Position numbers and translations under genes: made by a program. This document shows positions 1 to 43,845 of a stretch of DNA of 43,845 bases, one piece after another (positions within the stretch are counted from its first letter, which is position 1; the number at the start of each line of letters is the position of its first letter). Under the pieces are notes generated by a model that saw nothing but the letters and a program-made list of their open reading frames with translations, ran no database searches and was not told the DNA's origin. Source of the stretch: a virus; the IMG/VR virus record IMGVR_UViG_3300036900_000192, positions 1-43,845 of that record. One strand, 5' to 3'.

Positions 1-127
1 CCACGCGGGGTCGACCTGGCGCAGCCGGGCGGGCAGGTCGGCCAGCCGCACGCGGTCCGGCCCGGCGATCTCGGCCAGGTCGTCGAGCAGGTCCCGCGGG
101 GGCGCCCCGATCGCGGGCACATCCCGG
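1..127. repeat. terminal direct repeat marking a circular molecule
   Basis: Bases 1-127 are identical to bases 43719-43845. The translocase reading frame passes through the join without a shift, so the two ends are the same locus read twice. A 127-base overlap is what a k=127 assembler leaves on a closed circle, so this is more likely an assembly overlap than a biological terminal repeat. The non-redundant circle is 43,718 bp. Confidence 0.95.
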
Positions 128-1968
128 GCCTGGAGCCGGCCGCCGCGGAGCTTCACGGCCCTGGCGGCGATGACGGCGGCATCCTCGTCGCCGATGAAGT
201 GGGTGCGGATGACCGTGAACGTCTGCCCCCGCGGCGCGTCGAACGCGGTGACGTCGCCGGCGACCACGACCACGCCCTTATCGGCGCCCTGCCTGAGCTC
301 ATGCGGGGCCGCGCCTGCGGCCACGGCGTTCTCGCCCAGCGCCATGGCGGCCTGCGCCTCCGTGCCGACAACCAGCGACGCGCGGATGTGGTTGCCCTCG
401 CGGGTCCGCTTCGGCAGGTTCTCGTTCGTCGGGTCCTGCGTTCCTTCCCACGTCGTCACGCAGACCGCCCGGCCCTGGTCGTGAATCGCCTTGATCGCCT
501 GGAAGTACCTGCTGGTGTTCTTCGTGCCGCCGTAAGGGCGCCCGTCGTCGCCGGCCGCCCCGCAGCCGTACGCCTTCTGCGCCTCGTCGAAGATCAGCAC
601 CAGGGGATCGAACCGGGGGTCGGCGAGGATCTTCTCCTGCGTCCAGCCCGTCGCGGTCAGCTCCTGCATGAGCGCGGTCCGCTCCTGCATCTCCGTGACG
701 CCGGCCTCGGCCATGTGCGTGCCGCGCGCCACGTGCTCGTCAGTCGGCCCCTGGATCAGCACCTCTGCGAGCCCGTCGAACATGCCCCAGTCGCCGACCC
801 CCTTGAAGTCGGCGATCCAGAACCTGACCCGGCGCGACAGGGACAGCCACAGTGCCAGCGCCCGCAGCGCCGCCGTCTTCCCGTGGTTGCTGATGCCCGT
901 GACGAGGACGTGCCGCTGGAACACGCTCACCGTTGACGGCTCGCCGCGCAGGCTCTGCCCCCACGGGGCGCGCCCTGTGCGGTAGTCCGCCCGCACGGCG
1001 TGGTCAGTGACCAGCGGGGAAGGCCCGATCGGCTCGTCAAGGGCGCCGGAGTCGGCGATCCACAGGCGCACCGTGCGCGGGCGGCCCGGGACCGTGATGA
1101 ACAGCTCGTGGTTATGGCGGCCGACGTTCTCGGCGAGCTTCTCGCGCCGGCCGCGGACCTCTGACGTGGACACCCCGGTCGGCAGGTAGACGTCAACCTC
1201 GATGCCGCACCCGGCTGAGGTGATCAGGCCGAGCATCTGCGCCGCGCCGTCGTCCGTCGACTGGACGGCCTTCCGCAGCACCGGGAGGCCCAGGTCGCGC
1301 AGTGCGGTGGCCAGGATCGACGGGGTAACGGGGGCGCCTTCGTGCTCTTCCCGCTGGGCGGCCGTCATCAGCCACGAGGGCAGCTCGGCGCGGGTGCGGC
1401 CGAGGTGCCACAGCCGCGCGATGATGGCCAGCGGGACGCCGAACGACAGCACCCAGACGGCAACCGTCCAGACTGCCACCACGTCGCCGACGAGCGTGAA
1501 CAGGGTCTTCCACGGCCACAGCAGGTAGCCGGGGCTGTGGTGGTCGTAGGCCAGGGCGATGCCGGTCATCACCATCAGGAAGGCCCAGATCGCGAGCAGG
1601 TAGGGCGACAGCTTGGCCAGGTCGCGCAGCATCTCCACGTGGGCCTGCCGCCGCTCGGTGCGGCCCTTGCGCTCTAGCTCGGCCTGCTGGAGGAACTGGA
1701 GCGCGAGCGGCCCGTTGGCGGTGCCTGCCTGCTCGGCCAGTGCCGTGGCGAGGTTACGCCTGCGCCGCCGCTGGCGGGCGAGGGCGACCAGGCCGCCGGG
1801 GACGTACAGGGCGTGGCGCACGGTGGCGCGCGGCAGCGGGTGGCGGGTGATGACGTGCAGCACGTACACCGGCCGCCGCGGCTCGCCGACGATCACGCCG
1901 TCGATGACGTCGGCCAGCTCGTCATCTTCTGGCACGGCGGGCAGGTTCACGGGCTGCTCAGGCTGCAT
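1..1968 (-). CDS. FtsK/TraB-like DNA translocase (residues 1-656; continues at 43718)
   Basis: The full protein is 702 residues, with its ATG at 1968 and its stop at 43578 after crossing the circular junction. Two hydrophobic segments lie near residues 121-140 and 156-185. The motor domain carries Walker A GISNHGKT at 358-365 and Walker B LVLIFDEA at about 456-463. A basic, winged-helix-like C-terminus (about 620-702) resembles the DNA-reading domains of FtsK and TraB. Members of this family pump double-stranded DNA at the membrane; TraB does so in Streptomyces plasmid conjugation. The start overlaps the DUF2637 gene by 11 bases, so the two are probably co-translated. The family call is firm. 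Whether it serves conjugation, prophage segregation or something else is not shown by sequence. Confidence 0.88.
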   Translation of the reverse strand, partial: MQPEQPVNLPAVPEDDELADVIDGVIVGEPRRPVYVLHVITRHPLPRATVRHALYVPGGLVALARQRRRRRNLATALAEQAGTANGPLALQFLQQAELERKGRTERRQAHVEMLRDLAKLSPYLLAIWAFLMVMTGIALAYDHHSPGYLLWPWKTLFTLVGDVVAVWTVAVWVLSFGVPLAIIARLWHLGRTRAELPSWLMTAAQREEHEGAPVTPSILATALRDLGLPVLRKAVQSTDDGAAQMLGLITSAGCGIEVDVYLPTGVSTSEVRGRREKLAENVGRHNHELFITVPGRPRTVRLWIADSGALDEPIGPSPLVTDHAVRADYRTGRAPWGQSLRGEPSTVSVFQRHVLVTGISNHGKTAALRALALWLSLSRRVRFWIADFKGVGDWGMFDGLAEVLIQGPTDEHVARGTHMAEAGVTEMQERTALMQELTATGWTQEKILADPRFDPLVLIFDEAQKAYGCGAAGDDGRPYGGTKNTSRYFQAIKAIHDQGRAVCVTTWEGTQDPTNENLPKRTREGNHIRASLVVGTEAQAAMALGENAVAAGAAPHELRQGADKGVVVVAGDVTAFDAPRGQTFTVIRTHFIGDEDAAVIAARAVKLRGGRLQARDVPAIGAPPRDLLDDLAEIAGPDRVRLADLPARLRQVDPAW

Positions 1969-2608
1969 CGGCGCTCGCCGTGTCCAGCTCCGCGAGCACC
2001 CGCTCGCGTACTTCCGTCGCCGCCTGCCGGCTCAGCCCGAACTTCGTCGCGAGCGCGTTCACGGACCACGGGTTCCCGGCCGCGAGGGTGGCCCGCATGG
2101 ACGCCTCCGCCGCGCTCTCGGCGGTCGACGGGACCCGCGACGGCACTTCGCTCACCTGCGGCAGTTCAAGATTCGCCGTCACGTTTGAGGCACGGCGCGA
2201 CGACGCGCGGACGAGCATCATCAGCAGCTCGTAGCAGCCGACGAAGGCGAGCGCGGGCCATGACGCGATCAGCGCGCCGAGCCACCCGGACGGCAGCCCG
2301 GCGAGGACGTTGACGGCGAGGGTCGCGCCGATGCCGGCGGCGAGCAGGACCCATGCGAGCGGGGGCGGTTCCTCGCGGTGGCGGGCGGCGTCGAGCAGCA
2401 CCATGGACGACGCGATGATGAGGCCGTCGATCGTGACGGGGTACCAGCGGCCGATGATTCCGGGCTCGCCGTGGACGGTGACGACGGCGACGGCGTGGCG
2501 GTAGGAGACCCACCCGGCGACCGCGGCGACGGAGAGCACGGCGGTGACCGCGGTGCCGCGGGTGAGGCTGTCACTGGCGGCTGCGGCGGGGGTGTCTGTA
2601 GGCTCCAT
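1958..2608 (-). CDS. DUF2637-type membrane protein with C-terminal helix-turn-helix
   Basis: The protein has 216 residues. Four hydrophobic segments fill roughly residues 18-130, in the style of DUF2637 proteins found beside FtsK/TraB genes in actinobacterial integrative elements (Spd-like spread proteins). The C-terminal 50 residues (NPWSVNALATKFGLSRQAAT) look like a small helix-turn-helix. GGAGAGG lies just upstream of the ATG. It is the first gene of the minus-strand operon, overlaps the translocase gene, and is divergent from the GntR genes. A membrane partner of the translocase is the natural inference. Confidence 0.75.
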   Translation of the reverse strand: MEPTDTPAAAASDSLTRGTAVTAVLSVAAVAGWVSYRHAVAVVTVHGEPGIIGRWYPVTIDGLIIASSMVLLDAARHREEPPPLAWVLLAAGIGATLAVNVLAGLPSGWLGALIASWPALAFVGCYELLMMLVRASSRRASNVTANLELPQVSEVPSRVPSTAESAAEASMRATLAAGNPWSVNALATKFGLSRQAATEVRERVLAELDTASADAA

Positions 2609-2780: not shown

Positions 2781-3041
2781 ATGCCTAGCATGATCATCAT
2801 GCAGCCGCTCGTCATCGATACCCGCAGTTCAGTGCCCAGTTACCGCCAGCTGGCGGACCAGCTGCGCGCTGCTGTCGAATCCGGGGAAATCGCGCCCGAC
2901 GAGCCGCTCCCGTCGCTCACCCGCATCCGCCAGGAGACCGGCCTCGCCGTCGGCACCATCCAGAAAGGCATCGGCGTCCTGGTCGACGACGGCTACGCCT
3001 ACACCGTCCCCGGCCGCGGCACGTTCGCCCGCCCTGCGTGA
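2781..3041 (+). CDS. small GntR-family transcriptional regulator 1
   Basis: The protein has 86 residues and is essentially only the winged helix-turn-helix DNA-binding domain of the GntR family: PSYRQLADQLRAAVESGEI, then LPSLTRIRQETGLAVGTIQK, then a wing ending GRGTF. No effector domain follows. Such short GntR proteins (KorA/KorSA type) repress transfer genes in Streptomyces plasmids and integrative elements. Its position divergent from the translocase operon fits that role. The ATG at 2781 is used; ATGs at 2790 and 2799 are alternatives. Confidence 0.8.
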   Translation: MPSMIIMQPLVIDTRSSVPSYRQLADQLRAAVESGEIAPDEPLPSLTRIRQETGLAVGTIQKGIGVLVDDGYAYTVPGRGTFARPA

Positions 3042-3104: not shown

Positions 3105-3347
3105 ATGCGATCCGTAGACCGCAGTTCACGAACCCCCCCGTGGCAGCAGATCGCCGCCGCGCTGCGCGAGGAGATCACCCGGGGCCGCTACGGGCCTGAC
3201 GACCGGCTCCCGTCCGTCGCCGAGACCGCCGCGGCGTGGAGCGTCAACCGCAAGACCGCGAACAAGGCACTGCTCGCCCTCGCCGCGGAAGGGCTGATCG
3301 AGACGGAAGAGGGCATGGGCTACTACGTCAGGCCGGATGTGTCATAG
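3105..3347 (+). CDS. small GntR-family transcriptional regulator 2
   Basis: The protein has 80 residues and is again only the GntR winged-helix domain: PPWQQIAAALREEITRGRYG, LPSVAETAAAWSVNRKTANKA, and a wing ending GMGYYVRP. It is related to its upstream neighbour and may be an old duplication. Its stop codon lies inside the left arm of the predicted attP. It could regulate the integrase, the transfer operon, or both. Confidence 0.8.
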   Translation: MRSVDRSSRTPPWQQIAAALREEITRGRYGPDDRLPSVAETAAAWSVNRKTANKALLALAAEGLIETEEGMGYYVRPDVS

Positions 3348-3393: not shown

Positions 3394-4878
3394 GTGGCTA
3401 CCGGGACATCTGATGAATGGCTGTTGTACCTGCGTAAGAGCGTCGGCTACGCGGGCATAAGCCGCCAGCGCGCCAGCACCACGGACCACCTGGCCCGCCG
3501 CGGCGGTACCGTGGCGGCCGAGTTCTCCGACTCCGACCGCACCGCGTTCCGGTCCATCCGCGACGACATCGACGCCCCGATGCCCTACCGGCCGCGGTTC
3601 GCCGCGATGCTGGAGGAGATGGCGCGGCGTCCCGGCGTCGGCGTCGCCGCCTGGCACGCCGACCGGCTCGGCCGTGACCCGGAGGCGACCGAGATCCTGA
3701 TCCGCGCCTGCCGCCGCGGCGGCCACCTGATCAGCACCACCCGCGGCGGCGACTACGACGTCACCACCGCCAACGGGCGCAAGCACCTGCGGGACGACAT
3801 CAACGCGGCGACCCACGAGGTTGACCACAACACCGAGCGGCTGGTGGAGGCCAAGGCGGAGTACGCGGCGGAGGGCCGCTACCTGGGCGGCCTGCGGCCG
3901 TTCGGCTGGCGGACGACCGGGGAGCCCGGCGTCCTGGAGCTGGACGAGGCGGAGGCGGAGGCGGTCCGGAGGGCGTGCGGCGAGCTGCTTGCCGGGACGG
4001 CGGTCCGGGCGATCGCGCGGCAGTGGAACGAGGCGGGGCTGACCGGGACGGGCGGCGGCCGGTGGACGACCAGCACCGTGCACAAGGTGCTGTCGCGGCC
4101 GCGGAACGCCGGGCTGGCCGAGCACCGCGGGCGCGTCTTCGCCGTCGACGGCGGGGTGAAGTGGCCGGCCATCCTCGACGAGGAGACGTGGCGGGCCGTC
4201 GCCGCGGTGCTGTCCGACCCGGGGCGGCGGTCCAACCACGGCGGGACGGCGCCGTCTCACCTGCTGTCGGGCATCGCGCTGTGCGGCGGCTGCGGGCTGG
4301 CCGTCGTCGCCGGGAAGTCGGCGGACGGGACGCCGCGCTACCGGTGCTCGCGGCATTCCCGCGGGCTGCCGCGCCGCCCGGGCCCGCACGCCTCGCGGTG
4401 CGCCGCCGACGTCGACAGGCTCATCGCGTACCTGGCCGTGGGGCGGATGAAGCGGGACGACGCCGCGAGGCTGCTGCGGGAGGACCGCGGCGGGGAGCGC
4501 CCGGCGCTGCTGGCCCGGCGCGCTGTGCTGGAGGCGCGCAAGGCCGAGCAGTGGCGCCTGTACCAGGCCGGGGTGATCGACGACCTGGAGCTGGCGGACG
4601 GGCGCCGGCAGGTCCGTGAGGGCCTGGCGGACGTGGAGGCGCAGCTGCGGGCGATCGAGGCCGGGGACGTGATCGCGCCGTTCCTGGGCGACCCGGAGGG
4701 CACGTGGCGGCGGGCGCCGCTGGAGCTGAAGCGCGCTGTCGTCTCCGCGCTGATGCACGTGACCCTCATGCCGGGGGCGAAGTTCTCCCGGCCGCCCGGC
4801 TGGAAGCAGGGTGACGGGCAGTTTGACCCGCGGCTGGTCGACGTGCGGTGGGCGCGGCGGCTGCCGTCTGACGGCTAG
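3394..4878 (+). CDS. int: large serine recombinase (phage integrase)
   Basis: The 494-residue protein starts at GTG 3394. The N-terminal catalytic domain carries YLRKS, with Arg14 and the probable nucleophile Ser16, and a DRLGRD motif near residue 89. A recombinase domain follows (about 165-270), then a zinc ribbon with Cys297, Cys300, Cys318 and Cys336, and then a helical region of the kind that forms the coiled coil controlling direction. It would join attP to a chromosomal attB. Its stop shares CTAG with the opposing gene. Excision would need a directionality factor, which I cannot identify. Confidence 0.93.
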   Translation: MATGTSDEWLLYLRKSVGYAGISRQRASTTDHLARRGGTVAAEFSDSDRTAFRSIRDDIDAPMPYRPRFAAMLEEMARRPGVGVAAWHADRLGRDPEATEILIRACRRGGHLISTTRGGDYDVTTANGRKHLRDDINAATHEVDHNTERLVEAKAEYAAEGRYLGGLRPFGWRTTGEPGVLELDEAEAEAVRRACGELLAGTAVRAIARQWNEAGLTGTGGGRWTTSTVHKVLSRPRNAGLAEHRGRVFAVDGGVKWPAILDEETWRAVAAVLSDPGRRSNHGGTAPSHLLSGIALCGGCGLAVVAGKSADGTPRYRCSRHSRGLPRRPGPHASRCAADVDRLIAYLAVGRMKRDDAARLLREDRGGERPALLARRAVLEARKAEQWRLYQAGVIDDLELADGRRQVREGLADVEAQLRAIEAGDVIAPFLGDPEGTWRRAPLELKRAVVSALMHVTLMPGAKFSRPPGWKQGDGQFDPRLVDVRWARRLPSDG

Positions 4879-6656: not shown

Positions 6657-6685
6657 GGCGGCCCCGCTAGCACAACGGGGCCGCC
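6657..6685 (+). terminator. GC-rich hairpin, possible terminator or attenuator
   Basis: GGCGGCCCCG (6657-6666) and CGGGGCCGCC (6676-6685) are perfect 10-bp inverted arms around 9 bases. It starts 5 bases after the stop of the 45-residue gene. There is no T-run, as is common for actinobacterial terminators. It would separate the switch from the early operon or lower read-through. Confidence 0.55.
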
Positions 6686-6759
6686 ACCAACGGCGCGAGC
6701 ACGCGCCAGCCCCGGCCGGAGCACCGCCGGGACACCTCCAAGTAAAGCAGGAGCAAGCA

Positions 6760-7089
6760 ATGCCAGAACCGACCAAGGCCGACCTCAAGGCCGCAGTCGC
6801 CAAGCTCACCGAGGAAGTCGCCGCGCTGTACGACATCTTCGCCGCAGCGCGCGAGGCATCCGACGCGGGCGCGGACGTCCACTACCTATTCGGCTACGTC
6901 AGCGGCATCGGGAGCCAGCCGTGGGAGCACGGCAACGTCCCGGTGCTGCGCGACTTCGCCGGGGCACTCCGGCTCAAGGGGCGCGAGGCGGACGCGCCGC
7001 GCGGCCTCGCGTCGTGCGGCCACCCGGCTAACGACGACGGCGAGTGCGACTGCTCGTCCTGGCCGGAGCGCGCGGTGATGGCGCGATGA
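6760..7089 (+). CDS. hypothetical early protein with C-terminal Cys/His cluster
   Basis: The protein has 109 residues, with AGGAG nine bases before the ATG. The N-terminal half is helical (KADLKAAVAKLTEEVAALYD, a possible coiled coil). The C-terminus holds ASCGHPANDDGECDCSSW, four candidate metal ligands. It is the first gene of a long run in which nearly every stop overlaps the next start. Function is unknown. Confidence 0.65.
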   Translation: MPEPTKADLKAAVAKLTEEVAALYDIFAAAREASDAGADVHYLFGYVSGIGSQPWEHGNVPVLRDFAGALRLKGREADAPRGLASCGHPANDDGECDCSSWPERAVMAR

Positions 7090-14223: not shown

Positions 14224-14271
14224 GCAAGTTGAGGCTTGGTCCGGAGGGACGAGGGAGACGGGAAGGCGTGG

Positions 14272-15084
14272 ATGGCAACCGGCGCGGCGAAATTGGCTTG
14301 GGAGAACTCGCGCGCCCAGAACGGATCACTGCTTCTCGTAATGGCGATCGCATTCGAGCTTGAGGCTAAGGGGAATTGCATCATGACCGTCGCGGAACTG
14401 GCCGGAAAGGCGCGGCTAAGTGAGCGCGCCGTTCAGGCTGCGACCGTGGACCTGACCAAACTAGGCGAACTGACGGTCACGCGGCGTGCCGAAGGGCACC
14501 GGAACGGCTACGCGCTGTCGATGCTCAGGGGTGCAGAATCTGCACCCCTACCGGCTGGTAGCCCCGCAGAATCTGCACCCCCGCAGATTCTGCACCCCGC
14601 AGAATCTGCACCCCTCAAACCGAAAGCTGCCGGTCAAGCCAGGGGCGCAAAATCTGCACCCCTCGAAATCTCCGACATGTTTGTAGTTAGTACAGGTAGT
14701 CATGTGGCTGAGGTTAAAGACGTGCCGGCAAAGCCGCCACGGCGCCGAAGCGACGGGCGCGAAGACGTCGACCGGCTCTGCAGCCACCTCGCCGACCGCA
14801 TCGCGGCCAACGGCTGCAAGCGCCCTAATCCCAATCAGAAATGGCGCGACGCCGCACGGCTCATGCTCGACGCCGACGGCCGCACCGAAAAGCAGGTGCA
14901 CAACATGATCGACTGGTGCCAGGACAGCGAATTCTGGCGCGGCAATATCCTCTCGATGCCAAAGCTCCGCGAGAAATACGACCAGCTCAAAATGCAGGCA
15001 ATGCGCCCCGCAAGGCAAGCGAACGGGAACGAGAACCTCGGCTACGTCGCCGCCTTCCTCAAGAGAAACGGAGCGGGCGAATGA
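14272..15084 (+). CDS. replication initiator with internal origin (lambda O-like)
   Basis: The 270-residue protein starts at ATG 14272; GGGAGACGGGAAGG lies upstream and a GTG at 14236 is an alternative. Residues about 10-85 form a winged-helix DNA-binding domain (IMTVAELAGKARLSERAVQA). Residues 86-131 are encoded by iterons and repeat AESAPL. The C-terminal part (150-260, EKQVHNMIDWCQDSEFW) matches helicase-recruiting domains of phage initiators. It probably binds the iterons inside its own gene and loads host DnaB with the next gene's product. No phage helicase or polymerase is encoded. Confidence 0.75.
   Translation: MATGAAKLAWENSRAQNGSLLLVMAIAFELEAKGNCIMTVAELAGKARLSERAVQAATVDLTKLGELTVTRRAEGHRNGYALSMLRGAESAPLPAGSPAESAPPQILHPAESAPLKPKAAGQARGAKSAPLEISDMFVVSTGSHVAEVKDVPAKPPRRRSDGREDVDRLCSHLADRIAANGCKRPNPNQKWRDAARLMLDADGRTEKQVHNMIDWCQDSEFWRGNILSMPKLREKYDQLKMQAMRPARQANGNENLGYVAAFLKRNGAGE
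14527..14720. other. ori: predicted replication origin: five iterons plus AT-rich segment
   Basis: GCAGAATCTGCACCCC occurs at 14533-14548, 14566-14581 and 14599-14614. Variants lie at 14583-14598 (T at the centre) and 14647-14662 (GCAAAATC...). Each core is a palindrome, GCAGA-A-TCTGC. The first copy extends to a 23-bp palindrome with 11-bp arms (14527-14549). The next 58 bases (14663-14720) are about 41% G+C by hand count, far below the surroundings, and could be the unwinding element. The layout matches lambda's origin inside gene O. Confidence 0.72.
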
Positions 15085-18785: not shown

Positions 18786-18802
18786 CAAGCCCGGAGGTGA
18801 CC

Positions 18803-24120: not shown

Positions 24121-24477
24121 ATGAATGAGAAGCCGCCGACCGGGCTGGGCGCCAAGGCGCGCAAGTTCTGGCTTGCCGCGGTTTCGGAGTTCGGTTTCAG
24201 GCTTGACGAGCTGCGCGTGCTCGAGGACGCGTGCCGCGAGATGGACCTGATCGACCGGATGGAGAAGGAGCAGCGCGGCAGGCCCCTGATTGCGCGCGGC
24301 TCGCAGGGCCAGGAAGTGGCGGCGCCCCTGATCCAGGAGCTGAGGCAGCACCGGGCGACGCTGGCGCGGCTGCTGTCGCAGCTGGCGATCCCGGATGAGG
24401 GCGCCGAGGGCGGCGACGCGTCGCGGTCGGCGGCGGCCCGCGAGCTGATCATGGCCCGGTGGCGGCGTGGCTCATAG
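24121..24477 (+). CDS. terminase small subunit (P27-like)
   Basis: The protein has 118 residues. The pattern PPTGLGAKARKFWLAAVSEF, then LDELRVLEDACREMDLIDRM, fits P27-family small terminases, which recognise phage DNA and bring it to the motor. A helical middle and a basic C-terminus follow. The large terminase start overlaps its end by 11 bases. Confidence 0.8.
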   Translation: MNEKPPTGLGAKARKFWLAAVSEFGFRLDELRVLEDACREMDLIDRMEKEQRGRPLIARGSQGQEVAAPLIQELRQHRATLARLLSQLAIPDEGAEGGDASRSAAARELIMARWRRGS

Positions 24478-26296
24478 GCAGGCCGCGGACGACACCGCGG
24501 AGGTGACCGCGGCGGTCGTCGGCTGGTACCGCGGAGAGCTGGCCGAGCCTGCGCGGTTCCCGTGGTCGGGTTCGCGGGCGAGCTGGCGGGAGAAGCCGGG
24601 TTCTCCGCTGGTGCTGCCGGTGCCGGAGCTGATCGGGCCGAGCTGGCAGACGCGAGAGGGCCGCTGGCTGCTGCCGGAGTACAGCCTCGGGTGGGGGATG
24701 CTGGGCTGGTACGGGACGTGGCTGCAGTTGTCGCCGGGGGTTGCGTGGCGGCACACGCTTGAGCAGGCGCGGTGGACGCTGTGGTGGTACGCGGTTGACG
24801 GGCGCGGCCGGTTCACGCACCGGGACGCGGTTTTGCAGCGGCTGAAGGGGTGGGGGAAGGACCCGCTGGCGGCGGCTTTGTGCGCGGGGGAGATGCTGGG
24901 CCCGTGCCGGTTCGCCGGGTGGGATGCGGACGGCCAGCCGATAGGTGAGCCGCACCCGCAGCCGTGGGTGCAGACGGCGGCGACGTCGCTCGAGCAGACG
25001 AAGAACACGATGCTGCTGTTCCAGTACCTGTTCACCCCGGCGGCGGTCGCGAAGTGGCGTTTGCAGGTGCTGAAGGAGAAGGTGCACGGCGCAGGCGGGG
25101 CGCTGATCGAGGCGGTCACGTCGTCCCCGGCGACGCTTGAGGGCGCGCGGAGCACGTTCGTGCTGATGAACGAGACGCAGCACTGGAATGCGTCCAACTC
25201 GGGCCATGACATGGCGGACGTGATCGAGCGGAACGTGACGAAGAGCCCGGACGGGGCGGCGCGGACGCTGGCGATCACGAACGCGCCGATGCCGGGCGAG
25301 GACAGCGTGGCTGAGCGGACGCGGGACGCGTGGGAGCTGGCACAGTCGGGGAAGGCGGCGGATGTCGGCCTGATGTACGACTCGGTTGAGCCGCCGGCGG
25401 GGGCGCCGCTGCCGGAGGTCGGCAATGAGCAGGCTGAGGAGTTCGCCCGTGAGGTGATCCGGGCGGTGCGGGGTGACTCGACGTGGCTGGACGTGGACCG
25501 GATCTTGCAGTCGATGCAGGACGTGCGGAACGCGCCGAGCAGGTCGCGGCGGTTCTGGTACAACGAGCTCCATTCGCCGGAGGACGCGTGGTGCGCGCGG
25601 GCCGAGTGGGAGGCGTGCAAGGTCGAGGGCCTGGAGCTGGCTGACGGCGACTGGATTGTCCTGTTCGGTGACGGGAGCAAGAGCGACGACGCGACGGCGC
25701 TGGTCGGCTGCCGGATGGATGACGGTGCAGTGTTCCTGCTGGGCTGCTGGCAGCGCCCGCAGCACGCGAAGGACTGGCGGGTCGACCGGGCTGAGGTTGA
25801 CGGGGCGGTGACGGACGCGCACGGGCGGTTCCGGGTGTGCGGCTTCTTCTGGGACCCGGCGCCGGGCACCGATGAGGAGACGGGCGACCGCTACTGGGAC
25901 GATCTGGTGACGGAGTGGGCGCTGCGCTGGGGCGAGACGTACTTCACGAGGGCGAGCGATAAGCACGCGGTGAGCTGGCCGATGGACAAGAACCACCCGG
26001 CGAACGTGCGCGACTTCACCGTCGCGGCCGGACAGGGGCGGGCGGACGTGACGCGGCGCGACCTGCCGCACGACGGGAAGCGGCTGCTGCGGATCCACGT
26101 GTGCAACATGCGCCGGCGCCTGAACAAGTGGGGCGTCTCGGTTGGCAAGGAGCACCGTGAGTCGTCGGCGAAGATCGACGCCGGCGTGTGCGTGATCGGC
26201 GCGCGGATGCTGCGCCGCCGGGTGCAGCTGTCTAAGGAGTGGATGCGCGAGCTCCGTAAGGCGCGCGGTCAGGGAAGGGTGGTGGTTTTCCGGTGA
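24467..26296 (+). CDS. terminase large subunit
   Basis: The 609-residue protein starts at GTG 24467. The ATPase half has a Walker A-like GWGKD at residues 128-132 and a Walker B-like STFVLMNE near 230. The nuclease half begins around IVLFGDGSKSDDATA, with acidic residues that bind metal. It cuts and pumps the genome into heads through the portal. The long open frames on the opposite strand here are shadows. Confidence 0.88.
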   Translation: MAHRQAADDTAEVTAAVVGWYRGELAEPARFPWSGSRASWREKPGSPLVLPVPELIGPSWQTREGRWLLPEYSLGWGMLGWYGTWLQLSPGVAWRHTLEQARWTLWWYAVDGRGRFTHRDAVLQRLKGWGKDPLAAALCAGEMLGPCRFAGWDADGQPIGEPHPQPWVQTAATSLEQTKNTMLLFQYLFTPAAVAKWRLQVLKEKVHGAGGALIEAVTSSPATLEGARSTFVLMNETQHWNASNSGHDMADVIERNVTKSPDGAARTLAITNAPMPGEDSVAERTRDAWELAQSGKAADVGLMYDSVEPPAGAPLPEVGNEQAEEFAREVIRAVRGDSTWLDVDRILQSMQDVRNAPSRSRRFWYNELHSPEDAWCARAEWEACKVEGLELADGDWIVLFGDGSKSDDATALVGCRMDDGAVFLLGCWQRPQHAKDWRVDRAEVDGAVTDAHGRFRVCGFFWDPAPGTDEETGDRYWDDLVTEWALRWGETYFTRASDKHAVSWPMDKNHPANVRDFTVAAGQGRADVTRRDLPHDGKRLLRIHVCNMRRRLNKWGVSVGKEHRESSAKIDAGVCVIGARMLRRRVQLSKEWMRELRKARGQGRVVVFR

Positions 26297-26481
26297 TCGA
26301 GCCGCCGTGCAGTTTCCGGGCTGTCTTTCACTGGCCGACGTTCTACCGGTACCGCGTGGGCTTGCGTGGCTTGCGCGTGACGCCGAACCGCTATGGCCAC
26401 GCCGTGATCGGCCTGGCGCTGGTTGCCGGCCGTTATGCCTACTGCGTGAAGTGGGCGGACGCGAGGGCGGTTTTCCGGTGA
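26293..26481 (+). CDS. 62-residue small protein between terminase and portal
   Basis: GTG 26293 overlaps the terminase stop and the end overlaps the portal GTG. The same TTTTCCGGTGA end/start joint occurs at both junctions. The peptide is aromatic- and arginine-rich with a hydrophobic stretch (AVIGLALVAGRYAYCV). Function is unknown. Confidence 0.45.
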   Translation: MIEPPCSFRAVFHWPTFYRYRVGLRGLRVTPNRYGHAVIGLALVAGRYAYCVKWADARAVFR

Positions 26482-28025
26482 GCATCCTGTGGGAGACGCC
26501 GCTGTCACTCGGCATGCCGCTCGACCTGGCGAACGATGTCCTGTCGCCGGATGAGCAGGACATCGCCGACCGGCTGCTGATGCGGCTGAACCAGGACCTG
26601 CCGTACCTGAACGTGCGGGCGGAGTACTACGACGGCGAGCAGCGGATGCGGCACCTGGGCATATCGGTGCCGCCGGAGCTTGAGCACAAGCTGCGGGCGG
26701 CGGTCGGCTGGCCGCGGGTGATCGTCGACGCGATCAGGTACAAGCTGCGGGTCAGCGGGTTCCGGTACCCGTCGGCGCTTGAGGCGGACAGCGACATGTG
26801 GGACATCTGGACGGCGAACAAGATGCGCGCCAAGTCCCAGCTGGCGCACCTGGCGTGCCTGAAGTACGGCCGCTGCTTCCTGGTGGCCGGGTCTGAGGGC
26901 CCGCGGGGGATGCCGCTGATCACGGCGGAGAGCCCGACGACGATGGCGGCGGAGTTCGACGCGGCGACTCACCAGGTGACGGCGGCGCTGCAGCTGTACC
27001 GGTATTACGGGGCGCAGGCGGCGGCACTGTACCTGCCGGGTCAGACGATTCACCTGGTGCGCCAGGCGACGGTGCCGGGGGGCACTGTACAGCAGTGGGA
27101 GCTGAGCAGCCGGGACGTGCACGGCCTGGAGCAGCCGCCGGTGACGATGATGGCGAACCGGGCCGAGCTCGAGGACCTGTACGGGCGCAGCGAGATCACC
27201 CCGGAGGTCATGAGCATCACCGACGCGGCGTGCCGCCGGCTGCTCGGCATGGACGTGGCCAGCGAGTTCTTCGGCACTTTGCAGCGGTACATCATCGGCG
27301 CGGCGATGAGCAACTTCCAGACGCCGGACGGTGACCCGATCGCGGCGTGGGAGAGCTACATCGGCCGGCTGCTGGTGCTGGAGCGGGATGAGGAAGGCAA
27401 CGTGCCGGCGGTGGGCACGTTCAGCGCTAACTCGCCGCAGCCGCTGATCGACGTTTTGCAGCTGTACGCGCGCCTCATGTCCTCGGTGTCGCGGGTAAGC
27501 GCGCACCGCTTCGGCCTTTCGACGGATAACCCGGTGTCGGCGGAGGCGATCAAGGCGGAGGACGCGCAGCTTGACGAGCTGGCGGTCAGCAAGCAGGAAG
27601 CCTATTCGGACCCGTGGATGGCGTGCATGCAGCATGCGCTGGCGATCGGGAACGGCGGGAGCCTGCCGGGTGACGCCCGGTACCTGGAGGTGCTGTGGGC
27701 GTCGCCGTCGGTGCCGTCCCCGGCGGTGCTGGCGCAGGCGGCGCTGGCGAAGGTACAGGCGGGCATGGTGCCGTCAACCTCGGACGTGCTGCTTGAGGAG
27801 GTCGGTTACTCGCCGCCGCAGATCAAGCGGATCGAGGCGGACCGCAAGCGGGCGGCGTCGCAGGAGGACCTGGCGGCGATCGCGGACGCCCTGTCCACCG
27901 GGACCCTGGCCAAGGAGCTCGGCGCGGAGGCGGGGACGATGAACCCGGCACAGGCAGAGAAGACGGCGGCGGGGAACGCGGCGGGTGCCGGTGGCACAGC
28001 AGGCCAGCAGCCAGCCGGCCGCTGA
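26478..28025 (+). CDS. portal protein
   Basis: The 515-residue protein starts at GTG 26478. Order and features fit SPP1/HK97-type phage portals: an N-terminal alpha/beta part (YYDGEQRMRHLG), a long helical stem (FGLSTDNPVSAEAIKAEDAQ) and a C-terminal low-complexity tail. It forms the ring in the head vertex through which DNA moves. The MuF-like gene overlaps its end. Confidence 0.88.
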   Translation: MSILWETPLSLGMPLDLANDVLSPDEQDIADRLLMRLNQDLPYLNVRAEYYDGEQRMRHLGISVPPELEHKLRAAVGWPRVIVDAIRYKLRVSGFRYPSALEADSDMWDIWTANKMRAKSQLAHLACLKYGRCFLVAGSEGPRGMPLITAESPTTMAAEFDAATHQVTAALQLYRYYGAQAAALYLPGQTIHLVRQATVPGGTVQQWELSSRDVHGLEQPPVTMMANRAELEDLYGRSEITPEVMSITDAACRRLLGMDVASEFFGTLQRYIIGAAMSNFQTPDGDPIAAWESYIGRLLVLERDEEGNVPAVGTFSANSPQPLIDVLQLYARLMSSVSRVSAHRFGLSTDNPVSAEAIKAEDAQLDELAVSKQEAYSDPWMACMQHALAIGNGGSLPGDARYLEVLWASPSVPSPAVLAQAALAKVQAGMVPSTSDVLLEEVGYSPPQIKRIEADRKRAASQEDLAAIADALSTGTLAKELGAEAGTMNPAQAEKTAAGNAAGAGGTAGQQPAGR

Positions 28026-28716
28026 CTACCAGCGGCGCCAGGCGCTGCTCGCATCCGCGCTGGCGGTGCAGGTGGACGCGGCATTCACGTCGCTACTGGT
28101 GATCGGTGACCTGCGGGCGTCGCTGCCGGTCTTGTCGGCCGGGGTGGCGGCGCTGGTGCAGCGGTACGGGTCCGCGTCAGCGGGGATCGCCGCGTCGTAC
28201 TACGACCAGGCGCGCGCCGCGGCCGCGGTCAAGGGCGCGTTCCACGTGGTTCCCGCTTCGCCGGCCGGCCTGGATCAGGTTACGCAGTCGGTGCGGTTCG
28301 CGACGCGGACCCTGTGGAGCTCGCGGCCCGACACCGCCCCGGCGAAGGCGATGACGCGGGCAGTCGCCGAGCGGCACGTGATGGACGCGGGCCGGGACAC
28401 GATCACGGCGGCCGTTGCGGGGGACCGGCAGGCGCGCGGGTGGGCGCGGGTGACGCGGCCGGGGTGCTGCTACTTCTGCGCGATGCTCGCAACCAGGGGC
28501 GGCGCGTACCTGTCGAAGCAGAGCGCCGAGTTCAAGAAGGGCACCGACGAGCCCTACCACGACCACTGCCACTGCGTGCCTGAGCCGGTTTTCGGGGCGT
28601 ACGAGATGACGGCCGATGCCCGCGCCTGGCAGGCACTGTGGCGCTCGTCGACGAAGGGCCTCTCGGGTGATGAGGCCGTTAAGGCTTTCCGGCAGGCGTT
28701 CGAAGGCCGGGATTAG
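27985..28716 (+). CDS. MuF-like minor head protein
   Basis: The protein has 243 residues; GTG 27985 or 27991 could be the start. The C-terminal RPGCCYFCAMLATRGGAYLS, then DEPYHDHCHCVPEPVF, is the Cys/His signature of MuF/capsid maturation-type proteins of actinophages. The N-terminal part is helical. It is thought to be packaged in the head or to help its assembly. No protease active site is evident. Confidence 0.75.
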   Translation: MPVAQQASSQPAADYQRRQALLASALAVQVDAAFTSLLVIGDLRASLPVLSAGVAALVQRYGSASAGIAASYYDQARAAAAVKGAFHVVPASPAGLDQVTQSVRFATRTLWSSRPDTAPAKAMTRAVAERHVMDAGRDTITAAVAGDRQARGWARVTRPGCCYFCAMLATRGGAYLSKQSAEFKKGTDEPYHDHCHCVPEPVFGAYEMTADARAWQALWRSSTKGLSGDEAVKAFRQAFEGRD

Positions 28717-28731
28717 GCCCCGAAACGGGGC
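28717..28731 (+). other. short hairpin between MuF and scaffold genes
   Basis: GCCCCG-AAA-CGGGGC forms a 6-pair stem with a 3-base loop right after the MuF stop. Without a T-run it may be a weak terminator or an mRNA processing/stability element that tunes scaffold and capsid output. Confidence 0.4.
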
Positions 28732-28756
28732 GAAACCATCCGAAACGGAGGGTGAA

Positions 28757-29365
28757 ATGGCTGAAGACGGCCAGCAGGACCAGGACCAGGACGCAGCCGC
28801 GGACGCGGGCCAGCAGGGCGCCGGCGCAACGCCGGACACCGACTGGGAAGCCGAGGCGAAGAAGTGGCAGGCCCTGTCCAAGAAGAACGAGGACCGCGCC
28901 AAGGCGAACTCGGCAGCCGCAAAGAAGCTCGCAGACCTCGAGGCGGAGAACCAGTCCGACCTCGAGCGGGCGCAGGCCGAGCGTGACGCGGCCCGCGCCG
29001 AGATCACCGCGGCCCGCGAGGGCGTCGCGGCGGCGCGGCTCGAGGCGGCGCTGACCGGCCTCGTCGACGACCCGGCGGCCGAGGTCGCCGACCTGAACAT
29101 CAGCCGTTTCCTCGGCGATGACGGCCAGGTCGACCCGGAGAAGGTGTCGGCACTCAAGGCGCGGTACGCGTCGCGCGTGCCGCCGTCCGGCCCGCGGGCC
29201 CCGGCGCCGAACCCGGCGCAGGGCAACGGCACGCGGCAGCTGACGCTCCCGCAGATGGTCGCCGAGCTTGAGGCCAAGCCGGGCAAGTCGCGGGCCGAGC
29301 AGGTGGAGCTGGGGCGCCTGAAGGCGCGGCAGCTCATGCAAGTCAAGCAGCAGCAGCAGGGCTAG
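28757..29365 (+). CDS. scaffolding protein
   Basis: The protein has 202 residues, with CGGAGGGTGAA just before the ATG. It is acidic and Gln-rich at the N-terminus, a long coiled coil in the middle (LADLEAENQSDLERAQAERD) and basic at the C-terminus (LGRLKARQLMQVKQQQQG). This layout and its place just before the capsid gene are typical of scaffolds that guide capsid shell assembly. Confidence 0.82.
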   Translation: MAEDGQQDQDQDAAADAGQQGAGATPDTDWEAEAKKWQALSKKNEDRAKANSAAAKKLADLEAENQSDLERAQAERDAARAEITAAREGVAAARLEAALTGLVDDPAAEVADLNISRFLGDDGQVDPEKVSALKARYASRVPPSGPRAPAPNPAQGNGTRQLTLPQMVAELEAKPGKSRAEQVELGRLKARQLMQVKQQQQG

Positions 29366-29400
29366 GGCGCGGTGCCCGGCCCGGAAAAGAGAGGTAAGTC

Positions 29401-30363
29401 ATGGCGGTTAGCGGCCAGGGCACCACGTACAACCTTCCCAACTACCACGGGCGCTTGTTCGAAGTCTCCCCGACGGCGACCCCGTTCCTGAGCATGATCG
29501 GCGGGATCAACGGGGCCAAGACGATCCACAGCAAGACGTGGGAATGGCAGACGATCGGCGTGCGCAGCGCGTCGAACAACAACGTGGCGGCGGAAGGCGC
29601 GGCGGCGCCGACGGCGAGCGAGCAGGCACGGTCGAACGTCTTCAGCGTCACCGAGATCCACCACTCCAAGATCGACATCAGCTACTCCAAGCAGGCCGCG
29701 ACCGCGCAGTACGCCGGCCAGAACGTGGGCCCGGAGTTCGACGACGCGGTGATCGCCGAGGTGCAGCTGCAGATCGACCAGGAGCTCAAGGCGATCGGCC
29801 TCGACCTGGAGAAGAGCTTCCTGTCTGGCGTCTACCAGCTGCCGACGGACAACAACAGCAACCGGCAGACCCGCGGCATCCTGTCGGCGATCACCACGAA
29901 CCTGTGCACCGGCTCCGGTGCGGCGCTCACCACCGCGATGATCGAGACGACCCTGCTGAAGTCGATGTGGGACCACGGCGCCCCGCTCGACCAGGACAAC
30001 ACCGTGTTCATCTGCGACAGCGAGTCTGCCGGGTACATCAACAAGCTGTACTCGACGAGCTCGTCGCTGTCGGCGCCGACCCGTGACCGCACCATCGGCG
30101 GCATGGCGATCAAGACGATCACCACGATCTTCGGCACGTTCGGCGTGGTCATGGACAGGTCGATGCCCGCCAAGACGCTGCTGGTCGCGGACCTGTCGGT
30201 GTGCTTCCCGGTGTTCACCGAGGTCCCGAACAAGGGGATCTTGTTCACCGAGCCCCTGGCCAAGACGGGCTCGTCGGACCCGTACCAGATCTACGGCGAG
30301 ATCGGCCTGGAGTACGGGCCGGAGATCTACCACGGCGCGCTCGTCAGCTACGCCGCGGCGTAA
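29401..30363 (+). CDS. major capsid protein (HK97 fold)
   Basis: The protein has 320 residues. It begins MAVSGQGTTYNLPNYHGRLF and has E-loop and P-domain-like segments (EWQTIGVRSASNNNVAAEGA; LIASNVIAE-type helix near 120). The pattern resembles the HK97-fold SU10-type/DUF5309-like major capsid group of actinophages. It is preceded by the scaffold and followed by connectors. The ATG has GAGAGG upstream. Confidence 0.85.
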   Translation: MAVSGQGTTYNLPNYHGRLFEVSPTATPFLSMIGGINGAKTIHSKTWEWQTIGVRSASNNNVAAEGAAAPTASEQARSNVFSVTEIHHSKIDISYSKQAATAQYAGQNVGPEFDDAVIAEVQLQIDQELKAIGLDLEKSFLSGVYQLPTDNNSNRQTRGILSAITTNLCTGSGAALTTAMIETTLLKSMWDHGAPLDQDNTVFICDSESAGYINKLYSTSSSLSAPTRDRTIGGMAIKTITTIFGTFGVVMDRSMPAKTLLVADLSVCFPVFTEVPNKGILFTEPLAKTGSSDPYQIYGEIGLEYGPEIYHGALVSYAAA

Positions 30364-30366
30364 CTG

Positions 30367-30777
30367 GTGACCACGCTCGCGACGACGGCGCAGCTCGCGC
30401 TCAAGCTCGGCGTCACGCTCGACGACGACCGCGCGCAGCAGGCCCTCGACGAGGCCGAGGCTCTCCTGCTCGGCGTCGTCAGCCCGCTGCCCGCTGCCGC
30501 GTGGGTGATCGAGCTGCGGATGGCGGCGCGGGCGTTCCCGAACCCGGCGGCGGCCGCGGCGATGTCGGCGGCGGGCGCGTCGGTGTCGTTCCCGTCGCCG
30601 GGCGGGGTGTACCTGAGCCGGTACGACAAGGCGGACCTGCGCCGCATGGCCAATTCAGGTAAGGGCGCGTTCAGCGTGAACACCGCACCCGATGCCGGGA
30701 AGGGCTATGTCGACCCGCTGGCGCCGGGCACCGTCGACGAGGCGGAGCGGTTCGTGCTGGACCAGGGCATCTTGTGA
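30367..30777 (+). CDS. head-tail connector protein
   Basis: The protein has 136 residues from GTG 30367. The helical N-terminus (TTAQLALKLGVTLDDDRAQQ, ALDEAEALLLGVV) is typical of gp6-like connector adaptors. It would sit under the portal ring. Confidence 0.68.
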   Translation: MTTLATTAQLALKLGVTLDDDRAQQALDEAEALLLGVVSPLPAAAWVIELRMAARAFPNPAAAAAMSAAGASVSFPSPGGVYLSRYDKADLRRMANSGKGAFSVNTAPDAGKGYVDPLAPGTVDEAERFVLDQGIL

Positions 30778-31061
30778 GGTACGAGCCGGATCACGCGGGC
30801 CTCGGCGAGCTGCTGCGCTCAGCCGGCATGCAGGAAGTCGTGCGGGGTGTCGCCGGGACCGCGATGGCGGACGCCGTCGCGACCGCGCCGTTCCGCACCG
30901 GCGAGTACAAGTCCTCGTTCTCGGTGCACGTCACCGACGCGGGCGGCCGGAAAGGCGACCGGGCGGAAGCTGACGTGGTCAACGACAGCGGTCACGCGGT
31001 CCTCGTCGAGTGGACCGACGGTTTCCACACGCTGCGGAACAGCGCGGAGAGGCTGGCCTAG
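30774..31061 (+). CDS. HK97 gp10-like head-tail joining protein
   Basis: The protein has 95 residues from GTG 30774. The pattern ATAPFRTGEYKSSFSVHVTD, then ADVVNDSGHAVLVEWTDGFH, is the common core of HK97gp10-family tail-joining proteins. It is followed by the tail terminator-like gene, sharing one base with it. Confidence 0.72.
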   Translation: MRYEPDHAGLGELLRSAGMQEVVRGVAGTAMADAVATAPFRTGEYKSSFSVHVTDAGGRKGDRAEADVVNDSGHAVLVEWTDGFHTLRNSAERLA

Positions 31062-31459
31062 TGGGCGACTTCCCTGACCCTGAGCTGGCCGTGATCGACG
31101 CGGTGAGTGCCCGGTTCGCCGCCGGGATCACTTACGCGGGCGCGCGGACGCTGGTGAGCATCCAGGCCGGGAAGATGCCGGCGGTCCGGGCGAGGCGCAC
31201 CGGCGACGCAGGCTCAGACGAGATCACGGACCGCTCGCTCATCGAGCTGGCTGTGTTCGCCGAGGACGCGGACACGGCCAAGTCGCTCGCCGAGGGCTGC
31301 CGCCAGGACCTGGTGACTGAGCCGGGCATCAGCACCGGCCACGGGCTGATCGACTTCGTGCGCCAGGACGATGGCCCACGGCTGGCCACGTCGCCGGACA
31401 CGCCGCAGCGGCAGGCGGTGACCTCGGTTTACGCCGTGTCGATGCGCAGGGGCGCATGA
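31061..31459 (+). CDS. probable tail terminator protein
   Basis: The protein has 132 residues from GTG 31061. Position between the gp10-like joining gene and the tail tube gene, size, and the alpha/beta pattern (GADTLV-type strand, IELAVFAEDADTAKSLAEGC) fit tail terminator (gpU/Ne1-like) proteins that stop tube growth. The sequence match itself is weak. Confidence 0.6.
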   Translation: MGDFPDPELAVIDAVSARFAAGITYAGARTLVSIQAGKMPAVRARRTGDAGSDEITDRSLIELAVFAEDADTAKSLAEGCRQDLVTEPGISTGHGLIDFVRQDDGPRLATSPDTPQRQAVTSVYAVSMRRGA

Positions 31460-31508
31460 CCACCGCGCCTCATGAACTGACGAGTTACTTCACGGAAAGG
31501 CAGTGCCA

Positions 31509-32159
31509 ATGCCCGGGACCACATTCGCCGCGCTGACCGCGCCGAACGACGCCAACGTCCGCAAGCCGCTCAAGGGCGGCATCATCTTCGGCCCCATGAG
31601 CGCGACGCTCCCGGCGGCGCTCACGTCGGGCTCGCCGCCGGCGCTGCAGTCGCTGACCGGCTGGACGGGGCCGCTGGGACGGCTCACCACCGACGGCGCG
31701 ACCCGCGGCACCGCGGTCACCGCCTCCGACACGACCGGCTGGGGTGAGGGCGTGCCGGCCCGGGTCGACGTGATCGCCAGGGTCCGGACGCTGAAGTTCG
31801 GCGCCCTCGAGGTCAACAAGAACGTGCTGTCGTTCTTCTTCCAGGCCGACCCGGCGACCCTCGTCCCCGATGCGACCACGGGCGAGCTCGCGGTTACCGA
31901 CACCGGTGACCTGAGCCTGGTCAGCTACCGGATGATGCTGCTGATGCAGGACGGCGCGGCCGGCAGCGAGTTCTGGTTCGCGGACCTGCTGCCCAAGGCG
32001 TCGATCACGAACTTCGAGGACCTCGTCTTCAAGCCGGACACCGCGGTCATCCACGGTGCCACGGTCACCGCGTACATCGACTCCACGGCCGGGTACGCCT
32101 ACCGCAACATCTGGTCGGGCCCGGGCTGGCTGGCGAACAAGACGGCGATGGGCTTCTGA
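31509..32159 (+). CDS. major tail tube protein
   Basis: The 216-residue reading starts at ATG 31509, with GGAAAGG before it; an in-frame GTG lies at 31503. It begins MPGTTFAALTAPNDANVRKP and is beta-rich, with the ALEVNKNVLSFFFQADPATL and FEDLVFKPDTAVIHGATVTA segments usual in actinophage tail tube proteins. The tail chaperones follow directly. Confidence 0.75.
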   Translation: MPGTTFAALTAPNDANVRKPLKGGIIFGPMSATLPAALTSGSPPALQSLTGWTGPLGRLTTDGATRGTAVTASDTTGWGEGVPARVDVIARVRTLKFGALEVNKNVLSFFFQADPATLVPDATTGELAVTDTGDLSLVSYRMMLLMQDGAAGSEFWFADLLPKASITNFEDLVFKPDTAVIHGATVTAYIDSTAGYAYRNIWSGPGWLANKTAMGF

Positions 32160-32160
32160 C

Positions 32161-32454
32161 ATGACGAGGCTCTCCGAGCTGGTCGCGCAGGCGGCCAGGG
32201 AACCGTACGAGCTCGACCTGGAGGACGGCGGTCCGGTCATCGAGGTCCCGCAGCCGACGTGGGGCGGCTGGGTCGCGGCGCTCGCGCTGGACACCGACAC
32301 CGCGATCTTCGCGGCGCTGGGCGTGTCGCCGGAGGACGCGCAGCGGGTCAGCGACGCGGTGAACGGGGCGCCGATGAGCGTCCCCGGCCAGCTGATCGAT
32401 GACATGCGGAACCACTTCCGCCTGGGAAAGCAGAAGCCCTCGCCGCCCTCGTAG
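32161..32454 (+). CDS. tail assembly chaperone, short form (gpG-like)
   Basis: The protein has 97 residues. Its place between tail tube and tape measure and the slippery site near its end identify it as the zero-frame chaperone. It reads MTRLSELVAQAAREPYELDL and ends KQKPSPPS. It works with the longer frameshift form to load the tape measure during tail growth. Confidence 0.82.
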   Translation: MTRLSELVAQAAREPYELDLEDGGPVIEVPQPTWGGWVAALALDTDTAIFAALGVSPEDAQRVSDAVNGAPMSVPGQLIDDMRNHFRLGKQKPSPPS

Positions 32455-32927
32455 AGCGCTACGAGGACGCGGTGAGGGTGACGCTGCGCCGGTTCGGCGG
32501 CGGCGCCGGCCTTGACGACGTGCTGGCCGGCAGGGTCAGCGTCGATGAGGCCTATGCGCTGCTGACGCTGTCGCCGCGGACGTCGCCGCTGTGGGCGGCC
32601 GTGTACGCCGACCCGGAGTTCGAGCCGGCGGCTGCCCTCGGCGAGGTGCCGCTGAGCGATTACAGCCCGGAGGCCGAGGCGATCGCGGCCGTCCATGACG
32701 AGGTGCAGGCGCTGCGGCGGCTGGTGCACGAACTGTTCGCGCAGGCCCCGCACCCGCAGTTCACCCCGTACCGGCGTCCCGGCGACGCGCGCCGCGCCAC
32801 GGCGCACGCGGCCGACGACGCCGAGGCGTCGCTGGCGTGGGACGCCATCGTGGCACAGCTGATACCAGAGTGGGGAGGCGCGGGTGTCTTACCGGGCCGG
32901 CAGCGCCTTCGTCTCCATCAAGCCTGA
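32161..32927 (+). CDS. tail assembly chaperone, -1 frameshift form (gpGT-like)
   Basis: At 32424-32430 the heptamer GGGAAAG is read as G GGA AAG. Slipping back one base continues in the -1 frame as AEALAALVERYEDAVRVTLR and on to 32927, giving about 255 residues. The second frame has no good start of its own. The same heptamer is used by lambda and many siphophages for this gene pair. Frameshift efficiency cannot be judged. Confidence 0.82.
32424..32430 (+). other. programmed -1 ribosomal frameshift site
   Basis: GGGAAAG in the register G GGA AAG, 24 bases before the zero-frame stop, is a classic X XXY YYZ-like slippery heptamer. The downstream -1 frame is open for 165 codons. Confidence 0.82.
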
Positions 32928-43405: not shown

Positions 43406-43418
43406 TTCCCGTTCCTCT

Positions 43419-43527
43419 CGGGTTAGCTGCCGTGGCAGCGGGTTAGGTTTCCAACCCCGGCCATTCCGGGGCTAACAAGCTTCTGACCTGCGATTGTTAG
43501 CCGGGTTAGATGCCCGGCGCGGGTTAG
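43419..43527. repeat. four CGGGTTAG repeats; candidate clt/TRS locus
   Basis: CGGGTTAG is exact at 43419-43426, 43439-43446, 43502-43509 and 43520-43527, all in one direction. The inverted pair GGCTAACAA (43470-43478) and TTGTTAGCC (43494-43502) and the hairpin CCCCGG-CCATT-CCGGGG (43455-43471) lie between them. The array starts 51 bases after the translocase stop. In Streptomyces plasmids TraB reads 8-bp TRS repeats (GACCCGGA in pSVH1) at the clt site near its gene. The same use here is inferred. Confidence 0.55.
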
Positions 43528-43577
43528 CCGACGCTCGCCCGGTGCCCCCTGGAAGCGCAAATTGAAGACAGCCACGG

Positions 43578-43845
43578 CTAACTCACCTCTCGCTCCGCGA
43601 TCGCCCGTCGCAGGTCGGCCGGGTCCAGCATCGGCACGTTGCCCGGGTTCGTGGTGCGCACGCCGAGCTCGTCGAGCTGCTGCCGCAGCCGCTTGCCGTC
43701 GAGTCCGCGGTATGGCAGCCACGCGGGGTCGACCTGGCGCAGCCGGGCGGGCAGGTCGGCCAGCCGCACGCGGTCCGGCCCGGCGATCTCGGCCAGGTCG
43801 TCGAGCAGGTCCCGCGGGGGCGCCCCGATCGCGGGCACATCCCGG
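43578..43845 (-). CDS. FtsK/TraB-like translocase, C-terminal end
   Basis: This is the 3' end of the gene described at 1-1968 (bases 43719-43845 repeat 1-127). The unique part, 43578-43718, encodes the last 46 residues, LPYRGLDGKRLRQQLDELGV...MLDPADLRRAIAEREVS, a winged-helix-like DNA-reading domain. The frame is continuous through the join: 656 codons in 1-1968 and 47 with the stop here. Confidence 0.85.
   Translation of the reverse strand, partial: RDVPAIGAPPRDLLDDLAEIAGPDRVRLADLPARLRQVDPAWLPYRGLDGKRLRQQLDELGVRTTNPGNVPMLDPADLRRAIAEREVS

Follow-up and report, generated by a model that had tools for sequence, protein, structure and literature searches.

Organisation of the window

The window, by which we mean the whole stretch of 43,845 nucleotides analysed here, comes from an IMG/VR virus record. 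Its first 127 bp are the same as its last 127 bp (terminal overlap), so that it closes to a circular phage genome of 43,718 bp. An ftsK-like gene crosses the junction of this circle, next to genes for a DUF2637 membrane protein, two short GntR regulators and a serine integrase. The principal genes are as follows.

1..1968, minus strand: N-terminal 656 codons of ftsK/tra (PF01580, Walker A and B intact)
1958..2608, minus strand: DUF2637 (SpdB-like) membrane protein, 216 aa (PF10935, E = 2e-11)
2781..3041, plus strand: short GntR regulator 1, 86 aa, divergent from the DUF2637-ftsK operon (PF00392, E = 1e-9)
3105..3347, plus strand: short GntR regulator 2, 80 aa (PF00392, E = 5e-16)
3394..4878, plus strand: large serine integrase (PF00239 and PF07508; phrog_95, E = 2e-61)
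14236..15084, plus strand: lambda-O-like replication initiator with internal iteron repeats (14521-14660)
24121..26296, plus strand: terminase small and large subunits (phrog_1496, phrog_9)
26307..30363, plus strand: portal, head maturation protease, scaffold and major head protein (phrog_104, phrog_193, phrog_4708, phrog_1328)
30367..35469, plus strand: head-tail adaptor, tail terminator, major tail protein, tail chaperone and tape measure
43578..43845, minus strand: 3' part of ftsK/tra, coding for the C-terminal winged-helix-type domain (43719-43845 duplicates window 1-127)

The window is the complete genome of a temperate actinobacterial phage of siphovirus type (Caudoviricetes), with terminase, portal, major capsid, tape measure and integrase all present. 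The initial annotation had described a full capsid, tail and lysis set; the packaging, head and tail genes are indeed there, but no holin or endolysin was matched among the window proteins scanned. RecE/RecT-like genes are found too. AICEs are defined by the combination of Int, Tra and a Rep of the RepSA, RepAM or Prim-Pol type (PMC3218068). The window has Int and Tra, but its initiator is lambda-O-like, and searches of the window for Prim-Pol, DUF3631 and P4-type primase gave no significant match. Judged from these genes, its replication would be of phage type and not that of an AICE Rep. At least five copies of GCAGAATCTGCACCCC-type iterons lie at 14521-14660, within the initiator gene (14236-15084), and this array is probably the phage replication origin. 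Elsewhere in the genome there is a tRNA-like gene at 18691-18786 (ARAGORN; Rfam tRNA, 37 bits), to which no anticodon was assigned, and the early region at 19144-20771 has one gene for a nucleotide-sugar epimerase and another that may encode a glycosyltransferase-like protein.

The putative transfer cassette

The ftsK gene runs from 1968 to 1 and then from 43718 to 43578, giving a product of 702 aa. This protein has the features of the TraB type, namely an FtsK/SpoIIIE-type ATPase (PF01580, E = 2.5e-7; phrog_1358, E = 5e-18) in which Walker A (GISNHGKT, residue 358) and Walker B (VLIFDE, residue 457) are both intact, preceded by two hydrophobic segments at the N-terminus. The AlphaFold (AF2) model has a mean pLDDT of 81, and its top matches in the PDB are the FtsK motors of E. 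coli and P. aeruginosa (2ius/6t8o) and the conjugation coupling protein TcpA (6o1w). The C-terminal domain is modelled with a pLDDT of 83 and is winged-helix-like, with winged-helix DNA-binding proteins as its top PDB matches (Z up to 6.7). Structure prediction of this domain had been suggested as a check against TraB and FtsK-gamma. It yields a winged-helix-like model; FtsK-gamma was not singled out, the PDB matches being generic winged-helix ones below the level that separates families.

The end of the DUF2637 gene overlaps the start of ftsK by 11 bp, and the two form an operon. Simple hydropathy analysis of the DUF2637 protein gives a single confident membrane segment (residues 87-105). It is taken as the Spd membrane protein of the cassette, a function proposed solely from its position and membrane character; pSVH1 SpdB2 gives no DUF2637 match in Pfam. 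Both GntR genes, and the serine integrase beyond them, are divergent from the operon. The combination of DUF2637, an FtsK motor and two divergent short GntR proteins, first read from the sequence alone, is thus upheld by the profile matches (PF10935, PF01580 and PF00392). The module had been placed at 1-2608, but it extends across the junction to about 43400, and its most informative part is the repeat cluster at 43419-43527.

A putative clt behind ftsK

The region directly behind ftsK has a repeat cluster in the position seen in pSVH1 and in relatives of the window:

43416..43577, minus strand: putative clt region
43520..43527, minus strand: CTAACCCG repeat 1, putative TraB recognition sequence
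43502..43509, minus strand: CTAACCCG repeat 2
43439..43446, minus strand: CTAACCCG repeat 3
43419..43426, minus strand: CTAACCCG repeat 4
43483..43491, minus strand: GCAGGTCAG element (reverse complement CTGACCTGC)

The four copies of CTAACCCG lie within 110 bp on the 3' side of ftsK (in the 160 bp behind the gene), against a whole-genome expectation of 0.62, and the window has only one further exact copy. No 8-mer reached four copies per 200 bp in 30 shuffled controls, although a few other repeat families do so in the real genome. The CTAACCCG repeats had been spotted by eye ahead of these statistics, and the independent test is the cross-species one given below. The window has what characterises a clt, a cluster of direct repeats beside tra, and pSVH1 served as control of the method: the identical scan on the 3' side of its traB returned four copies of GACCCGGA. 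This is presumably the TraB recognition sequence of pSVH1, which was reportedly published by Vogelmann and co-workers in 2011. The same scan of pSG5 found no exact 8-mer repeat cluster. Repeats in the window are mostly direct, whereas many relatives have inverted copies as well. PMC3583192 bears out that the motifs are repeated and 8 bp long, and describes the clt of pWTY27 as 16 bp of traA together with 159 bp that contain four TGACACC.

A second element, CTGACCTGC, is common to the 3' side of tra in AICEs, prophages, pSVH1 (L082), pSG5 (L083) and the window (43483-43491). In either orientation it occurs exactly in 18 of 51 regions 3' of tra, compared with 2.4% of control windows. The shorter GCAGGTC was considered as a universal element and discarded, being present in only 14/51; the longer CTGACCTGC is better supported.

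Repeat type and the C-terminal domain

The cross-species comparison covered 52 loci, consisting of the window and its relatives, with random windows from the same loci as controls. At least three copies of some 8-mer were found in the 220 bp after ftsK in 26 of these loci, which are related and so not independent, against 4.7% of control windows. There are three types of repeat behind ftsK, and these match three types of FtsK C-terminal domain: KSDG-like domains go with GGGAGG (mean of 4.65 copies), DGYP domains with AGTGA (4.8) and TNxGN domains with CTAAC (5.0). The exceptions, with few or zero copies, are three of the DGYP loci and a small number of the KSDG-like ones. For 34 relatives, a partial Mantel test relates repeat type to the C-terminal domain when the motor is held constant (r = 0.68, p = 0.0002), whereas repeat type and motor, with the C-terminal domain held constant, give r = 0.06 and p = 0.20.

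The CTAAC group, which was defined once the repeats had been seen, has four members (the window, L044, L053 and L062). They share a C-terminal type, with 46-49% identity to the window, but a clade of their motors is strongly disfavoured (delta lnL 144, p-AU 1e-42). Because the C-terminal type and the repeats are shared by proteins whose motors do not form a clade, the domain appears to have been exchanged along with its repeats, as would be expected if one reads the other. At the level of sequence, docking specificity is supported by this covariation.

Two further loci, L045 and L070, combine a DGYP domain with both GGGAGG and AGTGA repeats in the 220 bp that follow ftsK, and are possible intermediates in a change of specificity. 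Behind the L025-type FtsK (G007), a different clade described below, the repeats are weak, and no clt is claimed for that clade.

Origin of the FtsK-like protein

In a tree of 63 rows, the window FtsK falls in a 99/99 clade with 51 AICE and prophage rows, on a long branch. Outside this clade are E. coli FtsK, the one chromosomal sequence in the tree, and the TraB proteins of pSVH1 and pSG5. The window protein is therefore not grouped with chromosomal FtsK, as far as that single row represents it, which was the check proposed by the initial annotation; its grouping with the Tra proteins of AICEs and prophages supports the earlier view that a Streptomyces-type transfer module is present in a real phage. 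The pair of DUF2637 and FtsK had also been called the module of integrative elements. The Tra is indeed of AICE type, but the pair is not restricted to AICEs, and prophages have it too.

When the motor alone is used, the window lies in a 100/99 group whose 17 other members are all viral contigs, again with a long window branch. The nearest annotated relative is the Tra of a 13.5-kb plasmid of Streptomyces sp. NBC_00859 (NZ_CP108827), 52-59% identical to the window FtsK over most of its length. This plasmid has an AICE gene set, with SpdB, an RRQRL protein, DUF6257, prim-pol, DUF3631 and a site-specific integrase. Relatives in ten GTDB genomes also lie mostly among AICE genes. The isolated phages of INPHARED gave only remote relatives of the window FtsK, with no close one, and no DUF2637. 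The AICE and prophage labels require several changes on the tree, which suggests repeated exchange of FtsK between phages and AICEs.

A quite unlikely explanation, in our judgement, is that the protein belongs to ordinary phage biology, as a packaging or ejection motor or in takeover of the chromosome, with no link to transfer. FtsK-like genes are indeed annotated in some phages (phrog_1358, Gilgamesh gp10, Geobacillus phages), and these resemble the window in that a tailed phage carries an FtsK/SpoIIIE motor. However, the Gilgamesh and Geobacillus phage proteins are only about 25% identical to the window FtsK and are not closely related to it. In addition, the window has its own terminase, and neither FtsK nor DUF2637 was found in a related phage (L024/L033, G006) that has the GntR-GntR-integrase block.

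Occurrence in other prophages

An alignment-based scan of IMG/VR for FtsK returned 41 records, to which seven records with the L025-type FtsK were added. A phage portal is present in 28 and a terminase in 27 of these 48 records. A search for the DUF2637-FtsK pair in other prophages had been recommended. In at least 18 IMG/VR (pro)phage records, whose heads are of many kinds, such an ftsK precedes TerL by 2-7 kb and shares its strand, and in most of them TerL, portal, protease and capsid follow, still on that strand. Behind ftsK, 16 of these 18 ftsK-terminase prophages have at least three GGGAGG/AGTGA motifs.

These records also bear on whether an AICE merely adjoins a prophage, or was misjoined with one in assembly. 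Provirus boundaries in IMG/VR are predictions, and some records, such as L060/G033, do resemble an AICE beside a prophage. Yet the window closes as a single circle through ftsK, and on this ground an assembly artefact was rejected for the window itself; the block of recombinase, GntR, DUF2637 and FtsK is found again in an independent phage contig (L025/L030); and ftsK stands ahead of TerL again and again, in 18 records that differ widely in their heads. An artefact of assembly or provirus boundary is accordingly very improbable.

The FtsK proteins of L009 and L047 are 94% identical while their TerL proteins are only 39% identical, and dN/dS between related viral-contig copies of FtsK is 0.09-0.43, indicating purifying selection. 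Because near-identical alleles accompany unrelated terminases and dN/dS is low, ftsK seems to be both exchanged and kept under selection. L025/L030 (G007) has an integrase 94-95% and a GntR2 90% identical to those of the window, and DUF2637-ftsK in the same place; its FtsK, however, is of another clade, 25% identical to the window FtsK, and its head proteins are of a different kind. Comparison of L025/L030 with the related phage L033, in which the pair was not found, therefore marks the cassette as an exchangeable accessory beside the integrase. In L025 the other FtsK clade occupies this slot at 6668-9251, beside the 94% identical integrase, an allele replacement.

Such allelic variety in one slot is accessory-like, and PHROGs lists phage FtsK-like proteins (phrog_1358) under moron/host takeover. 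The cassette could thus be a moron directed at competitors, disturbing AICEs or plasmids already resident in the host, or else a gene for defence or exclusion. We think this unlikely: the repeats lie in cis and are matched to the element's own protein, which would be superfluous for a weapon acting in trans, and the membrane partner is retained in the operon.

Proposed mechanism

On the basis of gene content and order, motor integrity, tree placement, repeats at the clt position, covariation, recurrence in prophages and purifying selection, all of which were computed, we consider it probable that this temperate siphovirus carries an intact dsDNA transfer cassette of the actinobacterial TraB type (TraB/SpdB/clt). 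Docking, pumping, transfer and regulation we infer by analogy with TraB systems (PMC4170104, PMC3583192). The GntR repressor or repressors would keep the divergent spdB-tra operon silent until derepression. The FtsK-like protein would then form a hexamer, anchored in the membrane by its two N-terminal helices, with a RecA-type motor and a C-terminal winged-helix domain. Through this winged helix it may dock on the CTAACCCG repeats in the putative clt that follows its gene, and it would pump the excised circular phage genome, double-stranded and unprocessed, across a membrane to an adjacent hyphal compartment or a mating partner, with the DUF2637/SpdB-like membrane protein possibly assisting spread. 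The outcome would be a second, particle-free route of spread for the phage, besides virions.

It is plausible, though we lean against it, that the same pump and putative clt serve instead for maintenance or spread of the prophage within the mycelium (segregation, resistance to loss) and not for transfer between individuals. Plasmid SpdB proteins are tied to intramycelial spread and stability (PMC4170104), mycelial hosts possess cross-walls, and virions already serve long-range spread; on the other hand, the AICE relatives that share this module are, as a group, self-transmissible. The sequence offers nothing to separate these two uses.

A more tentative proposal, which could nearly as easily hold as fail, is that there is a widespread and unrecognised class of integrating actinophages that spread in two modes, by virions and by TraB/SpdB transfer acting on their own clt, with swappable C-domain/clt cassettes setting specificity.

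Relationship to known systems

The window cassette resembles the AICE module (pSAM2/pMEA-type Tra, SpdB, GntR) in its GntR control, SpdB-type protein and repeats 3' of tra. It differs in the genome that carries it, which has a serine integrase besides genes for O-like replication, packaging, head and tail, and no significant match to Prim-Pol, DUF3631 or a P4-type primase, and in the repeat itself, which is CTAACCCG in the window and AGGGAGGC in an AICE-type system. In the open-access literature, a 2022 study of AICEs leaves the clt motif undescribed even for pSAM2 (PMC9513070).

With the plasmids pSVH1, pSG5 and pWTY27, the window shares an FtsK-like TraB and a clt of short repeats directly behind its gene. 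The layout of pSVH1, with GntR divergent from SpdB-TraB-clt, is that of the window, but the motor of its TraB is only about 25% identical to that of the window FtsK, and the repeat sequence and the carrier differ.

The precedent for a combination of phage and transfer genes is the Streptomyces plasmid-phage pZL12 (phage ZL12, NC_013420), which has phage genes, an FtsK-like gene and a GntR regulator. Its transfer requires tra and two adjacent genes (PMC3583192), and its transfer and lytic cycle were the subject of a 2010 study, going by the title cited in PMC4487206. However, pZL12 is a 90-kb plasmid that has ParAB and maintains itself as a plasmid, whereas the window is a temperate phage whose genome carries an integrase and a Tra of AICE type; the FtsK-like gp071 of ZL12 gave no significant match to the window FtsK. 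What is new here is the presence of an AICE-type Tra/SpdB/clt cassette in an integrating temperate phage, the recurrence of this cassette in many prophages, and the pairing of protein and repeat. Work on phage-plasmids has found interconversion mostly through loss of phage genes (PMC10879196), and a survey of actinobacterial prophages in the open-access literature mentions neither FtsK nor conjugation (PMC10023795).

From the pairing of repeat and C-terminal domain, clt sites can readily be predicted for Tra proteins of AICE type, and a swap of either repeats or C-terminal domains in laboratory Streptomyces would put transfer specificity to a direct test. Phages and conjugative elements are usually seen as separate strategies, but here both sets of genes coexist repeatedly in integrating phages, and some phages may spread both as particles and by direct transfer from cell to cell.
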